Shown: one piece after another, positions 31,063-37,745 of the stretch
How the letters are laid out: every line of letters starts with the position of its first letter
Position numbering within the stretch: the first letter of the stretch is position 1
DNA from: Acidobacteriota bacterium
GTDB lineage: Bacteria; Acidobacteriota; Holophagae; Acanthopleuribacterales; Acanthopleuribacteraceae
Reading direction: 5' to 3'
DNA length: 64,000 bases
NCBI GenBank assembly: GCA_020439745.1
Contig: JAGQSC010000035.1
Coordinates: 1-64,000, forward strand
Notes under the pieces: model-generated
What the model saw: only the letters and a program-made list of their open reading frames with translations
Database searches by the model: none
What the model was told of the DNA's origin: nothing
Made by a program: the position numbers and the translations under genes

Positions 31063-32481
31063 CTAAGGAAGTATGGCTGCCTGGCAATCGCAGGGAACGA
31101 ATTGGTTCATCAATATCACATGATCAATCAAATTGAGATAACCATTTCCGTCCTGATCAAAAGGGGCACCCGCGGATGTTGACCATGTGGGTAATTGAGT
31201 CATTAGATCATCCATATCTACGTCCAAGTCGCCATCGAGATTTCCGATACATTCGGTGAGGGGCCAGCGATTCGGACGACGCCGATAACGGACGTTAGCG
31301 CCATCTAACCAGGCAACATGTGTAAATCCAGCGCTTTTTGTTACAAGCGGTGTGTTTGAACCCGTGGTGACGGATACCTCTTCGAGTTCGCACCATTGGA
31401 GACCCCCATTAATTGATTCTTGTAATAGCACCTGTGGGCCACCACTGACGCTGTCGTGCCATGCTAATGGCAAAGTCAACGACCCTGAAGCCGCGTATCC
31501 GTGCGTTGAATCGGTGTTGCCATTGGTGAGTCGCACATTTGGAGACCATGTGTTGCCATCATCACCGGAATAGGTGGCATGAACATCCAAGCCTGTGTTG
31601 CCCGGCTCATCGTAAAAGACATCAAATGGAATAACCACACTTGCAGGTGGGACAAATGCTAAGGAAGGACGCGACGCATATTGGGAGAATCCGGTGGTCA
31701 ACTCTTGATAAGAAAGGGGCCAGGTGAGCCCGCCGTCGTCTGAACGCATATAGGCCGTTCCAGGACATGCTGGAATCAAGGCGCCTGCATCGTTGGCCGC
31801 GCAGTCTCCCAGCCCGAGCCGGGGGGTCATCCAGGCCAGATGGACTTGTTGTCCGTTGCTGGCGATTGCCGGCCTTTCGTATCCGAAGCTGTCGTCACCG
31901 CTCAGCAGCACGAATTCCTGCCAGGGCATTCCTGGTGACCCACGCAAATAATGTACATCCCATGTGCCGAAATTTCCGTCCGGCAGGAATAGGCCGGGCC
32001 TGTGATTCATGAACGCGATATGTACGGTGCCGTCGGCGTCAATATCCATGCCCAGACGATAAGCGCGTGCACCGCTTGTCAGTGGTACTTCACCTTGCCA
32101 GTTCGCGCCTCCATCGTCGGAACGAAGCATGTACAGATCACCAACTTCTCTGGATACGTTGTATCGCGCAAACAAGAAATCCTGAATAACGGCGGTGATT
32201 CTGAAATAGACAACCAAAACTGTATCTGCTTGGCTGTTGATGGGATCTTGGAGATAGAGCGATATGTTGTTGGCGAGGGTGACTTCCGCTGACCATGTGT
32301 TTCCTTCGTCGACGGATCTTTGAAAAATCAAATCGCTTCCACACTGTTTGACCAGATAGACACGATTTCCCGATGAAGAGATCCCCTGCTTTGAACCGCA
32401 GCCCATGTTTTGTATGGGTTCCCATTCTCCGCAAAAAGAGAATCCAGACAGGATTAGAAGCACGAAATTCAGATTTCTCAT
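31063..32481 (-). CDS. secreted BNR-repeat (sialidase-like) protein with dockerin-like C-terminus
   Basis: This 472-residue exported protein has a signal peptide (MRNLNFVLLILSGFSFC). BNR/Asp-box repeats (RSVDEGNTWS, RSDDGGANWQ, RSDDGGLTWP, YSGDDGNTWS, SINGGLQW) form a six-bladed sialidase-type propeller. A C-terminal pair of Ca-binding loops, DLDVDMDDL and DQDGNGYLNLID (about 425-460), looks like a dockerin type I or EF-hand repeat. I see no sialidase FRIP motif, so enzyme activity is unlikely. No cohesin partner is visible in this window. It ends 112 bases from the sRNA terminator on the opposite strand. Confidence 0.85.
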   Translation of the reverse strand: MRNLNFVLLILSGFSFCGEWEPIQNMGCGSKQGISSSGNRVYLVKQCGSDLIFQRSVDEGNTWSAEVTLANNISLYLQDPINSQADTVLVVYFRITAVIQDFLFARYNVSREVGDLYMLRSDDGGANWQGEVPLTSGARAYRLGMDIDADGTVHIAFMNHRPGLFLPDGNFGTWDVHYLRGSPGMPWQEFVLLSGDDSFGYERPAIASNGQQVHLAWMTPRLGLGDCAANDAGALIPACPGTAYMRSDDGGLTWPLSYQELTTGFSQYASRPSLAFVPPASVVIPFDVFYDEPGNTGLDVHATYSGDDGNTWSPNVRLTNGNTDSTHGYAASGSLTLPLAWHDSVSGGPQVLLQESINGGLQWCELEEVSVTTGSNTPLVTKSAGFTHVAWLDGANVRYRRRPNRWPLTECIGNLDGDLDVDMDDLMTQLPTWSTSAGAPFDQDGNGYLNLIDHVILMNQFVPCDCQAAILP

Positions 32482-33116: not shown

Positions 33117-33187
33117 GTGGGTGAACCTATGGTCTGCGCCCGCGTTCGTGGCTTTGTACGTTTGATTTGGCTAGGTTTGAGGCGATG

Positions 33188-33811
33188 ATGAAACGTAAGA
33201 ATTGGACCGTTGTGGCGGGCATCGTGATTCTGGGAATCGGCTCATTGGGATTTGTATGGATTATTCGCCGTATGCCAGCCACACCTATTGCGGCATCGGG
33301 AGGTATGTCTTCTGAAATCCGTTTCGAGGATGCACCTTTTTATCTACAAACAGATGCTCGTTGGGCCCATGACCGATTGGGAAACACGGGGGCGAGTCTT
33401 GCCTCTGAGGGTTGCACCGTTTGCTCGCTGAGTATGGCACTTGCCTATTACGGGGTTGATCTAACACCCAAGGCCTTGAATGTTGCACTGACTGAAAAAG
33501 GAGGGTACACCGATAAAGGATGGTTGATTTGGAAGCGTGTCTCGGAGGTCACGGACGATCAGATCGAGGTCGGTGTGCCGCGCCAAGCGAAACACGCCTT
33601 GATTGACGAAGCGTTGCAAGCTCGCCAACCTGTGCTTGCGAAGGTGATGCTGAATGCGATCGTGCCTCATTGGGTCTTGATTGTGGGTAAGTCAGGAGGA
33701 GACTACCTGATGAAGGATCCCCTCGGAAACGGAATGAGCTTGGAAAAACTGTCCAAATACCAAAGTGACATCTATGCCATTCGCATCGTCCAACCGAAGT
33801 CCAGGCACTGA
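33188..33811 (+). CDS. membrane-anchored C39-like (papain-fold) peptidase
   Basis: This 207-residue protein has one N-terminal membrane helix (about 7-27, VVAGIVILGIGSLGFVWII) and then an extracytoplasmic papain-like domain. Conserved elements of peptidase_C39_2 are visible: WAHDRLGNTGASLASEGC with the likely nucleophile Cys, SLSMALAYYG after it, and VPHWVLIVGK with the catalytic His, followed by the DPLG Asp. Bacteriocin-processing C39 domains are usually fused to ABC transporters; this one stands alone, so it is a general exported peptidase or amidase. The start at 33188 has GAGG 5 bases upstream; ATG 33185 and TTG 33167 are alternatives. Confidence 0.78.
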   Translation: MKRKNWTVVAGIVILGIGSLGFVWIIRRMPATPIAASGGMSSEIRFEDAPFYLQTDARWAHDRLGNTGASLASEGCTVCSLSMALAYYGVDLTPKALNVALTEKGGYTDKGWLIWKRVSEVTDDQIEVGVPRQAKHALIDEALQARQPVLAKVMLNAIVPHWVLIVGKSGGDYLMKDPLGNGMSLEKLSKYQSDIYAIRIVQPKSRH

Positions 33812-33818
33812 CCTTAGG

Positions 33819-36800
33819 CTACTGCAGCGAGTCCCCAAATTCGTTGAGCGGTTCACCTACGGGAGGATGTAAATCTCCAGACCACGGGTTGGTCCGGCCA
33901 AAATCGCCGGTGTGTTGGTAGGAAGTCACACGATAGGTGGGGTTGGGCACCAGAAACTCACCTTTGGGGACGATGAGTGTCATCGTGTTGTTTTGCAGAA
34001 TCACTCGCGCCGCGCTCGAAACCGTGGTGGGATTGTTGTTGCGGGCGTCGGTAACGATCAAGCGCCAACCAAACGCGGGTGAATACTCGACCGAATACCA
34101 GCGGTCGGTATCGCTATATAGATCAAAGGGAAACGATGAACTGGGCTGATAGTTGTTATTGGGGTTGCCATCCATGTCGAAGACAAAGCCAAACTGGTAA
34201 CGATTTTCCTCGTGAGCCAAGGGAATAGGGGCCCTCGTGGCTAGGAACGCAATCACATATTCGCCTTCGGTCATGTCCAGCGGATTAGCTGGGCAAATGG
34301 TCAGGCCACGGGGTCCCAAAACCCCGCACTCATAGGTGTTGATTTTTGGGAAAAGATTATCCAGCAATGTGAGCAGCATGAATTTGGAAAAGGCACCGTG
34401 CTGGGCGATCTCTTCGGGACATGCGGGTACGCGCATATCGCCAAACGAGTTGATCGTGTTGAGCAGGATATCCGCCAGTCGTGTATTTCCTGCCAAGAAC
34501 ATGGAAATGTCTTCATCGGTCTTGTCGGGGCAAAGTAATTTCATAAATGTGAACAGGTCTTGGTTGAAGTTGACTACAGAGGCTATTTGCTGCGAGTGCG
34601 TGCTGGTACCGGGATGATCAGGGTCCAAATTCGTCGCTTGAATGGTAAGTGTATCGATAAATGTACCCAGGCCCAGTTGGTTGTCGGGGTCGCCAAAAGT
34701 TGAAAGGGTCACCTTTTGCGACTGGTTAGGTGCCAAGGTGAATCCAGGCGGGGAAACAAAGGCCCGTTCATCGGCATTGGACACCTGATAGCTGTGGTGA
34801 AACGAGGCACGATTGGTAACGGTGACGCAAGCAACCTGCTGTTCGACACAAAGTCGAGACAACGGAAAAATGGTCTCGTCGCTGAGGCTGATGGGATCGC
34901 CGACCGTAACGGGAGGGGGTTTGCATACAATCACTTTGGCATTCGCAATCGGCGTGTCCAGGCTGGAGTTCACGATGGGGTTGCCATCGTCGTCCAGGGT
35001 ATACGCATTGACGAAATCGCCGTTGTCCATGGTGACGTACTCCACGAAGTCCTGAGTAAATAGGCCGCCTACCTCGGCGATGCCTTCGTTGGTAAGCACC
35101 AGTGCCGCACCCAAAATGGCCGTGATGGAGTACGAGTATTGGTCGGCACATGCAGCTGAAATCAATTCCACGTCCTTTTGTCGACCAGCCTCTGTGGTTT
35201 GTAACGCAGTCTTGATAGATTGGATGGCCTTCTCTGAGAAACAGCTGTCTATGACCACTCTGATCTTGGAAGCTTTTGAATTCTGCAGTTCAAGTCGCGA
35301 ACCGAACCAGATACAGGGACTGTCTTCGTCTTTGAACATCATGTCCCATTGGCCGTCACGGTGGCCATGCGTGGAGAAATAGACCATGAGCGTGGATTCA
35401 CAATCAGGCGGGAGCTGCATGATGCGGTTGTTGTAGGCGCGGAGGTAGTTGTCATAAGTAGTGTTATTACGCGAGCCGGGTGCCGTTTCGTTGGCGGTCC
35501 CAAATGTGATGATCTGATCGGCGGGTACTCCCTGGTCCAACATCCACTGCCGCATTCTGAAACGGTCTTGATCAAAATTAATCCCCTCGGAACCCGAAAA
35601 AAGGATACCGAACACGTTCTCATTTCCTTGACCGTTGCGTTTATGCGCTGGCGGAGAGCCCAAATCGATATCGCCTGGAGATTGCACGATTTCGGGCGAC
35701 CATTCAAGGATCGCATTGGCGGGGAGGGCGTTGATGTTGAACTCGCTGTACAGATCGAGTCCACGCGCCAGCAGACCTTCGCGATCGGTGTCCCAAAAAT
35801 GTTGATGCCCCACCATAACGGTCGATTCGGCTGCGTAATCGGCGCGGCTCCCTGAATTTGCGCCTATGAGCGTCCAACTGACGCCGTGGACCATGACGGC
35901 TTGAGGCATAGGGTCAATAAAGAACAGCCATGAATCTTCTGCGAGTACCACTACATCATCGGGGTGTGGTCCTGTGTCAGAGCTGCCGTATTTGGGATAA
36001 ATTGAAGTGCCTGCAGGAAGGGGTTGCATGCTGGCCATAACAAGTGCGTCATCGGCAACACCTTGCAGTGCGTTGGCTGTGGCTTGCTCTTTGGTCACTG
36101 GGAAGATGGTACCCGTGATTACGGACTGACCCGCAACGGCCGTCACGAATGCTTGGGTGCTGCGCCCCTGGAATTGGCCGCGTAGGTCAATCAGGCCCCC
36201 TTCGAGGTTCGTGATCGAAAACGTGCCGACGGCATCCGCGGTCACTGTGTTCAGGACCCGTTCATCTCGACGCAGCGCCGAAATGGTAGCGCCGTTTGCC
36301 GCAATGAATCCGGACCCGGCTGCTTCAGCGGAAGGGAAGAACATGATCTGGCTGCCATTGTCACCCAACCATCCCGTGATGCTGGCGCCCCTGTCTTCAG
36401 CGCAACTGGAAAAGGGTCGATCGACTGATTCGGTGGCCGTGGCCCAAAGGTAACTGACGGGTGCCCCGGGCTCGGTGCCTCGAAGGGCGGTGACGGCAAT
36501 GCGCCCGGATGATGTCAGTTCGAACGACCCGCCTTGGACAAACCGAGAGCCGCCTGGACCGCCCAACACATAGAGCGCCTTGGCCTGAGGCTGAAGAGCC
36601 TGCGCAATCCAAGCGCAACCCACTTCGACGGAATCCTCATCTAACTGGCGTATGAACACATCGGCCGCATGATCGTCCAGATTGACGATGGCCAGACCAT
36701 CAAAAACTTCATCCCAATTTCCCGATTCGACTTGGAAGAACCAACCCTGATCTGAGACTGAACGCACCACGGCAGGGCTTCCGGAGCCCCCAGCAGAAGC

Positions 36801-37745
36801 ATATTCGGTACTCACGCGAATAGCTGTTGGCGCATCGATTTGCACATGCGAGGCATTGCCAAGCAGTGCCACTGCATCGTGGATCTCGGTACCAAAACCA
36901 GGTAGATCGCGTGTGACCGTATTGAGGGGGGTGCCGTCTTCAGTAAACGGGATCAGGGTGACGGATTTGGGTGAATTGCCGGTATTTTCCAGGATAAGTG
37001 ATGTTGTGAATCCACCTGTCGGCCTGGTCAAGTGAGGCAACATGACCCCACCATCGCCTTGAGGCAGATTTGCAGCGTTTTCCCATAAGTAGCCCACGGG
37101 TGAACCTGGCGTTGTGCCCCGCAGCGCCGTCAATGCGATGTTTTGCGTAGCGACAATTTCAAAATGATCGCCCACTGCGACTGCGAATTCCGAACCACTG
37201 GGGCCGCCGATCACGTACAGGCCTTTTGCCATGGGTGCCAGTTGGTCGATCAGGTCAATTTCGTGGCGAATATTGCCATCGGCGTCAATCTGTCTCAACG
37301 AAACCGCAGCCGACTTTGTGCCCGTGTTGACATAGGCGATTCCGTCGAAAACCACGTCCCAGTTGCCTGCAAAAATTCGCCAATTGCGTTGTTGTGTCGC
37401 TTGTTCCACGACATGAGCGGGGCTACTTCGACCGCTTGCGGCTTCGAATGCGACGGTGACGGTTACATCCATCGCCTCCACGGTGAAGTGACTGACCGGT
37501 TCGTTTCCGAAGAACTCAGTGCTCGGCAAGGCGATGCGCTCGAGCGGAGCTAATGGGGTATCGATTGCAGAAAGTGACTGACCATCGAGCGCGTAAGGCT
37601 GAATACGACAGGTGGATGCTTGGTTGGTATGGCTTTGAAGGATGATTGTGGTGACGAATCCCCCGTTGGGTGCCGTAACGTGTGGAATCATTCGTGTCTG
37701 AGCCCAAAGTTGCAGACACACTAATGCAAACAGGTACCTTCTCAT
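33819..37745 (-). CDS. large exported caspase/legumain-like (clan CD) cysteine protease
   Basis: This 1308-residue protein has a signal peptide (MRRYLFALVCLQLWAQ). Two tandem modules of about 210 residues (about 20-235 and 240-445) share the GGPxGSxF and IALTALRGTxPGxPVxYLW motifs. A carboxypeptidase-like beta domain (about 455-540) and a mixed region lead to a clan CD protease core with MVYFSTHGHRDG (His793) and RVVIDSCFSEKA (Cys835). That is the spacing and context of the caspase/C13/C14 catalytic dyad. A downstream beta-sandwich (about 935-1040) and a C-terminal domain with DMDGNPNNN (about 1220-1300) complete it. The combination is not one I recognise. Cleavage specificity cannot be read from the sequence. 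It is convergent with the C39-like gene, 7 bases apart. Confidence 0.8.
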   Translation of the reverse strand: MRRYLFALVCLQLWAQTRMIPHVTAPNGGFVTTIILQSHTNQASTCRIQPYALDGQSLSAIDTPLAPLERIALPSTEFFGNEPVSHFTVEAMDVTVTVAFEAASGRSSPAHVVEQATQQRNWRIFAGNWDVVFDGIAYVNTGTKSAAVSLRQIDADGNIRHEIDLIDQLAPMAKGLYVIGGPSGSEFAVAVGDHFEIVATQNIALTALRGTTPGSPVGYLWENAANLPQGDGGVMLPHLTRPTGGFTTSLILENTGNSPKSVTLIPFTEDGTPLNTVTRDLPGFGTEIHDAVALLGNASHVQIDAPTAIRVSTEYASAGGSGSPAVVRSVSDQGWFFQVESGNWDEVFDGLAIVNLDDHAADVFIRQLDEDSVEVGCAWIAQALQPQAKALYVLGGPGGSRFVQGGSFELTSSGRIAVTALRGTEPGAPVSYLWATATESVDRPFSSCAEDRGASITGWLGDNGSQIMFFPSAEAAGSGFIAANGATISALRRDERVLNTVTADAVGTFSITNLEGGLIDLRGQFQGRSTQAFVTAVAGQSVITGTIFPVTKEQATANALQGVADDALVMASMQPLPAGTSIYPKYGSSDTGPHPDDVVVLAEDSWLFFIDPMPQAVMVHGVSWTLIGANSGSRADYAAESTVMVGHQHFWDTDREGLLARGLDLYSEFNINALPANAILEWSPEIVQSPGDIDLGSPPAHKRNGQGNENVFGILFSGSEGINFDQDRFRMRQWMLDQGVPADQIITFGTANETAPGSRNNTTYDNYLRAYNNRIMQLPPDCESTLMVYFSTHGHRDGQWDMMFKDEDSPCIWFGSRLELQNSKASKIRVVIDSCFSEKAIQSIKTALQTTEAGRQKDVELISAACADQYSYSITAILGAALVLTNEGIAEVGGLFTQDFVEYVTMDNGDFVNAYTLDDDGNPIVNSSLDTPIANAKVIVCKPPPVTVGDPISLSDETIFPLSRLCVEQQVACVTVTNRASFHHSYQVSNADERAFVSPPGFTLAPNQSQKVTLSTFGDPDNQLGLGTFIDTLTIQATNLDPDHPGTSTHSQQIASVVNFNQDLFTFMKLLCPDKTDEDISMFLAGNTRLADILLNTINSFGDMRVPACPEEIAQHGAFSKFMLLTLLDNLFPKINTYECGVLGPRGLTICPANPLDMTEGEYVIAFLATRAPIPLAHEENRYQFGFVFDMDGNPNNNYQPSSSFPFDLYSDTDRWYSVEYSPAFGWRLIVTDARNNNPTTVSSAARVILQNNTMTLIVPKGEFLVPNPTYRVTSYQHTGDFGRTNPWSGDLHPPVGEPLNEFGDSLQ

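Follow-up and report, generated by a model that had tools for sequence, protein, structure and literature searches.

Does the gene at positions 33819 to 37745 encode an exported caspase-like peptidase, as the initial annotation proposed, and what is the repeated module at its N terminus? The gene lies in what we call the window, which is the whole 64,000-nucleotide stretch that was analyzed, on contig 16 of a 5.1-Mb genome from the Acanthopleuribacteraceae (Acidobacteriota), a family known from marine animals. Our preferred reading, to which we give a probability of roughly 55%, is that the product acts as a C14B-like cysteine peptidase at the cell surface or outside the cell, where a tetrad of ASRAH-like domains tethers it and it cleaves extracellular substrates.

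The gene, its product, and its neighbors

The open reading frame is intact: it runs from ATG to stop on the minus strand without internal stops and encodes 1,308 residues, with His793 (in STHGHRDG) and Cys835 (in IDSCFSEK) where the initial annotation had placed them. Scans for Rfam families and tRNAs gave no relevant hit at this gene. Its features are as follows.

33819..37745, minus strand: whole gene, 1,308 amino acids; a single-gene unit without a conserved operon (the ortholog's locus, L116, has other neighbors)
37698..37745, minus strand: signal peptide, residues 1-16 (MRRYLFALVCLQLWAQ, followed by TR), read from the sequence; the join AQ/TR(I/M)IPH recurs in paralogs
37077..37694, minus strand: module 1, residues 18-223, a probable dyad of ASRAH-like beta-sandwiches of about 100 amino acids
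36438..37046, minus strand: module 2, residues 234-436, the second dyad
36123..36296, minus strand: carboxypeptidase-regulatory-like beta domain, residues 484-541 (PF13620, below the Pfam cutoff)
35028..35621, minus strand: caspase-like p20 core, residues 709-906 (PF00656 above cutoff, profile tests with controls, predicted strand-helix order)
35565..35567, minus strand: Asp727, aligned with the S1 acid Asp95 of TbMC2; Asn in the ortholog
35367..35369, minus strand: His793, catalytic-type histidine, aligned with the SGHG histidine of C14; kept in the ortholog
35247..35249, minus strand: Asp833, aligned with the S1 acid Asp211 of TbMC2 (the D of D-x-C); Gln in the ortholog
35241..35243, minus strand: Cys835, nucleophile-type cysteine, aligned with D-x-C of C14; kept in the ortholog
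34284..35027, minus strand: residues 907-1154, without a match in a Pfam search
33831..34283, minus strand: conserved C-terminal domain (residues 1155-1305), also present in a paralog that is not a caspase homolog

The N terminus bears out the proposal that the protein is exported. We identified the signal peptide by visual inspection of the sequence and by comparing it with paralogs, many of which show the same join to the module. The initial annotation also considered export to be unusual for a prokaryotic enzyme of this type, and this we reject. Among 671 prokaryotic metacaspases, 98 were assigned to the membrane, 30 were extracellular, and 7 were intracellular, with the rest unassigned; the "membrane" class mostly reflects an N-terminal helix, which may be a signal peptide (PMC3501461). 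Within the bacterial family itself, several C14 proteins likewise begin with signal-like sequences.

We found a single ortholog, which is full length: it is encoded at locus L116 of Holophagae bacterium isolate OFTM365, the only other member of the genus among the genomes searched. (A search of contigs with a single protein as the query found nothing.) The two proteins are 32% identical overall and 25% identical in the core. The C-terminal domain is more similar (58% identity to the ortholog), and it is 48% identical to the corresponding domain of an 839-amino-acid paralog in the genome from which the window comes, which combines it with modules and has no caspase core. This domain had no match in Pfam, and among 396 genomes of the phylum, it was found in this genus only. 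The match to PF13620, upstream of the core, had E = 0.0011 in the whole protein and E = 3.7e-5 when excised (24.4 bits, while 32.3 are required).

The gene at 33167-33811 (plus strand) is a convergent neighbor that ends 8 bases away; its product has an N-terminal hydrophobic segment and weak matches to C39-like peptidases, just under the cutoff. We considered whether this gene forms an operon or a functional pair with the caspase-like gene, but because it is convergent and is absent from the ortholog's locus, we rejected the idea. The gene at 31063-32481 (minus strand) encodes an exported protein with BNR/sialidase-like repeats, whose C terminus resembles a dockerin-type calcium repeat.

The caspase-like core

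The initial annotation assigned the core to clan CD from its histidine and cysteine motifs, and calibrated sequence statistics uphold this, as does the retention of both residues in the one ortholog. In the whole protein, residues 765-906 match Pfam's Peptidase_C14 (PF00656) with E = 5.9e-5 and 23.3 bits, as compared to a curated cutoff of 21.4; the excised core scores 27.4 bits (E = 3.3e-6). We also scored the core with a profile built from 14 C14 domains of this bacterial family. It reached 25.6 bits, while the best of 4,000 shuffled sequences scored 6.0, and a profile-profile comparison to C14 gave a score of 62.4, while the maximum for column-shuffled controls was 19.6. In the alignment with the 14 domains, His793 and the following glycine fall in the SGHG column, and Asp833-Ser-Cys835 falls in the D-x-C column. 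This core is the only match to C14 in the genome, and across the 396 genomes, its profile matches proteins from this genus only. Searches of PDB sequences with the full protein or with the core's profile gave no credible match.

A structural model of the core is compatible with the caspase fold but falls short of proof. The AlphaFold2 model was built from a two-sequence alignment and is of low confidence (pLDDT 47, pTM 0.51); its strands and helices alternate in the order of p20. Foldseek found no match to this model at E <= 0.001. With VIA-align, 27 of the 50 best rows for this low-confidence model were clan CD enzymes: legumains, the peptidase subunit of GPI transamidase, caspases, a clan CD self-processing domain from a toxin, and the metacaspase AtMC4. 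In this comparison, Rossmann-like reductases reached a Z score of 8.4, and the scores were 7.6 for legumain, 6.9 for caspase-6, and 6.6 for AtMC4; Rossmann-like and clan CD rows were about level.

That reductase-like folds top the list for a low-confidence model might suggest that the HG and D-x-C motifs are chance matches within an unrelated alpha/beta domain. However, the core passes the curated cutoff for C14, and the shuffled controls lie far below the real scores; we consider a chance match to be highly improbable. The legumains raise another alternative, namely, that the core belongs to a different family of clan CD, similar to legumain (C13) and with a preference for Asn or Asp at P1. 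They are the best of the clan CD rows, at 15-18% identity, but the excised core matches Pfam's Peptidase_C13 far more weakly (E = 0.11) than it matches C14, and it has D-x-C as well as an aspartate at the S1 position of metacaspases. A C13-like core therefore seems quite improbable.

If the core is a C14 peptidase, its specificity may be suggested by the residues that line the S1 pocket. In metacaspase MC2 of Trypanosoma brucei, the S1 acids are Asp95 and Asp211 (PMC6426788). Asp727 and Asp833 align with these, although the column for Asp727 comes from a low-identity alignment, and this suggests a basic residue at P1. Thus, the core probably prefers Arg or Lys. In the ortholog, the His and Cys are kept, but the HG motif becomes HH, Asp727 becomes Asn, Asp833 becomes Gln, and the core does not match PF00656. 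Because of these differences, the activity or specificity may not be the same in the two orthologs.

The ortholog also bears on whether the protein is an enzyme at all. The caspase fold might have been retained in a pseudo-enzyme or binding scaffold, so that the protein would be a structural or adhesive protein of the cell surface. The ortholog's loss of the glycine of HG and of both S1 acids would fit this, as would the 839-amino-acid paralog that has the C-terminal domain and modules without the core. Furthermore, two C14 proteins from relatives (L043 and L045, in genomes G006 and G005, respectively) bear signal peptides and have SGYG and DAGF in place of the His and Cys columns (H to Y and C to G); with both columns replaced, they look like exported pseudo-caspases. 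On the other hand, His and Cys are retained in two strongly diverged members, the window protein and its ortholog, and the window protein has both HG and D-x-C intact. We consider a pseudo-enzyme to be unlikely; we see in the product an exported, strongly diverged C14-type protein that is probably active as a cysteine peptidase. Caspase homologs have also proliferated in one relative (G004), which has ten C14 matches (L039, L044, and L046-L053), several with signal-like N termini, a lineage expansion.

The repeated module

The N-terminal duplication that was noticed in the initial annotation is present, and it goes further than was described. Modules 1 and 2 are about 205 amino acids each and are 39% identical, and each of them consists of two homologous halves of about 100 amino acids (hhalign probability 94.8%, E = 5e-8). 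Because both modules are internally duplicated, the N terminus is a tetrad. The module was also described as unfamiliar. This stands for a direct search of Pfam, but the module resolves into a probable dyad of domains from the ASRAH/ASRT superfamily that is related to DUF5719.

The ASRAH superfamily was defined by TM1070 and ASRT, and sugar binding by its members is a prediction; its secreted families form dyads and tetrads and have a conserved Asn at the end of strand 2 (PMC2739507). The AlphaFold2 model of the module is all beta (pLDDT 75), and the best structural matches of its first half are TM1070 (Z = 9.9, with a root mean square deviation of 2.7 over 100 aligned residues) and ASRT (Z = 7.7 and 7.4), while the next row has Z = 5.5. 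In its predicted structure, then, the first half is a beta-sandwich like those of TM1070 and ASRT, as is characteristic of ASRAH. The module shares other traits with ASRAH as well, namely, the dyad or tetrad arrangement and an Asn that follows an early strand: across 43 modules, N21 is nearly invariant and N123 is invariant, which gives one conserved Asn per half. With the same model, Foldseek found no match at E <= 0.001, and a search of PDB sequences with the module's profile gave no credible match.

Sequence comparisons give fainter links. Seven of the 43 modules match DUF5719 (PF18986) at E <= 0.01 (the best has E = 4.7e-5), but none of these matches reaches the curated cutoff; just one of the 43 matches ASRT (PF07100), with E = 0.0069. 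When the module was compared to ASRT with hhalign, the first half scored 21.2, as compared to a maximum of 14.5 for shuffled controls, and the second half scored 18.2, which is within the noise. Because the direct profile-profile link to ASRT is weak, membership in ASRAH is probable but short of established. We infer that DUF5719 is the actinobacterial ASRAH family; none of the papers searched mentions DUF5719.

The module is widely used in this genome. A search with its profile found 49 matches to modules or half-modules, and full modules occur in about 22 exported proteins, at the N terminus right behind the signal peptide in about 15 of them and at the C terminus in about 7. The partners include penicillin amidase, GH114, PNGase F, glucose/sorbosone dehydrogenase (GSDH), DM13, YHYH, copper monooxygenase, and leucine-rich repeats; in relatives, the module is joined to beta-lactamase-like, M4 peptidase, and alpha/beta-hydrolase domains. 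Most strong full-length relatives of the module come from this bacterial family and a few from other parts of the phylum, and weaker or half-length matches occur in about one-tenth of the 396 genomes. A search of contigs with a three-row alignment of modules found loci from OFTM365 only. An adjacent pair of genes (L068:2771-5544, minus strand) has a module in each, and one of the two also has a GSDH domain. Two exported proteins are nearly a single module alone: L057:3581-4330 (minus strand, 249 amino acids) and L064:3014-3739 (minus strand, 241 amino acids). These are possibly free-standing binding proteins.

This distribution could be explained another way: the module might be a surface-sorting or anchoring domain for diverse envelope proteins and have nothing to do with sugars. 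It is found on many unrelated exported proteins and always near an end, and in L057 and L064, little else follows the signal peptide. However, a terminal sorting signal would not be expected at either terminus, as the module is, and its predicted fold matches domains that are thought to bind ligands. We view this explanation, which concerns the role of the module only, as somewhat unlikely.

Proposed role and comparison with known systems

A tethered extracellular peptidase might work as follows. The signal peptide would take the protein over the inner membrane, and from there it may be placed beyond the periplasm. The four ASRAH-like beta-sandwiches, as two dyads, would bind a glycan or a similar small molecule that belongs to the cell surface, the matrix, or the substrate. 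Once bound, they would place the caspase-like core at that site, where the core, with His793 and Cys835 as its dyad, could cut extracellular proteins or peptides, probably with Arg or Lys at P1.

More speculatively, the module may be part of a toolkit of the lineage: the Acanthopleuribacteraceae might tag proteases, amidases, glycosidases, and oxidases with one ASRAH-dyad module that takes them to a shared glycan, and the caspase-like pocket might have been respecified between sister species (Asp727 and Asp833 versus Asn and Gln). We offer this tentatively. If our reading is correct, then the ASRAH fold, with its predicted sugar binding, is no longer limited to a handful of secreted families but also serves as a portable module on dozens of exported enzymes of one bacterial family, and an extracellular, glycan-tethered caspase relative is added to the known ones. 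Interest in bacterial caspase homologs has so far focused on regulation and cell death. We see the protease itself as a variation on a type of enzyme that is already known; what is newer, and more interesting, is the module and how broadly it is used.

Among known systems, the core is most readily compared to Peptidase_C14 and to the prokaryotic metacaspases and orthocaspases (C14B), with which it shares the strand-helix order of p20, the HG and D-x-C motifs, and the positions of the S1 acids. It differs in being so diverged (23-27 bits against PF00656, with the ortholog unrecognized), in being embedded in a beta-rich exported protein of 1,308 residues, and in being confined to one genus among 396 genomes. 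Gingipain and clostripain are exported clan CD peptidases of families C25 and C11, respectively. Like them, the window protein has a signal for export and a His/Cys dyad of clan CD, but the family and the architecture are different, and our analysis found no sequence match between the window protein and either of them.

The module compares most closely with ASRAH, that is, with ASRT and TM1070 and with the secreted families that are actinobacterial or linked to amidases. The shared features are a beta-sandwich of about 100 amino acids, with 1nc7 and 2ii7/2ii8 as the best structural matches, the conserved Asn, the arrangement in dyads and tetrads, and the fusion to secreted enzymes. The differences are that the link in sequence is weak, that the module does not have the His/Cys pocket signature of ASRT, and that its enzyme partners are much more varied than those described for ASRAH (PMC2739507).
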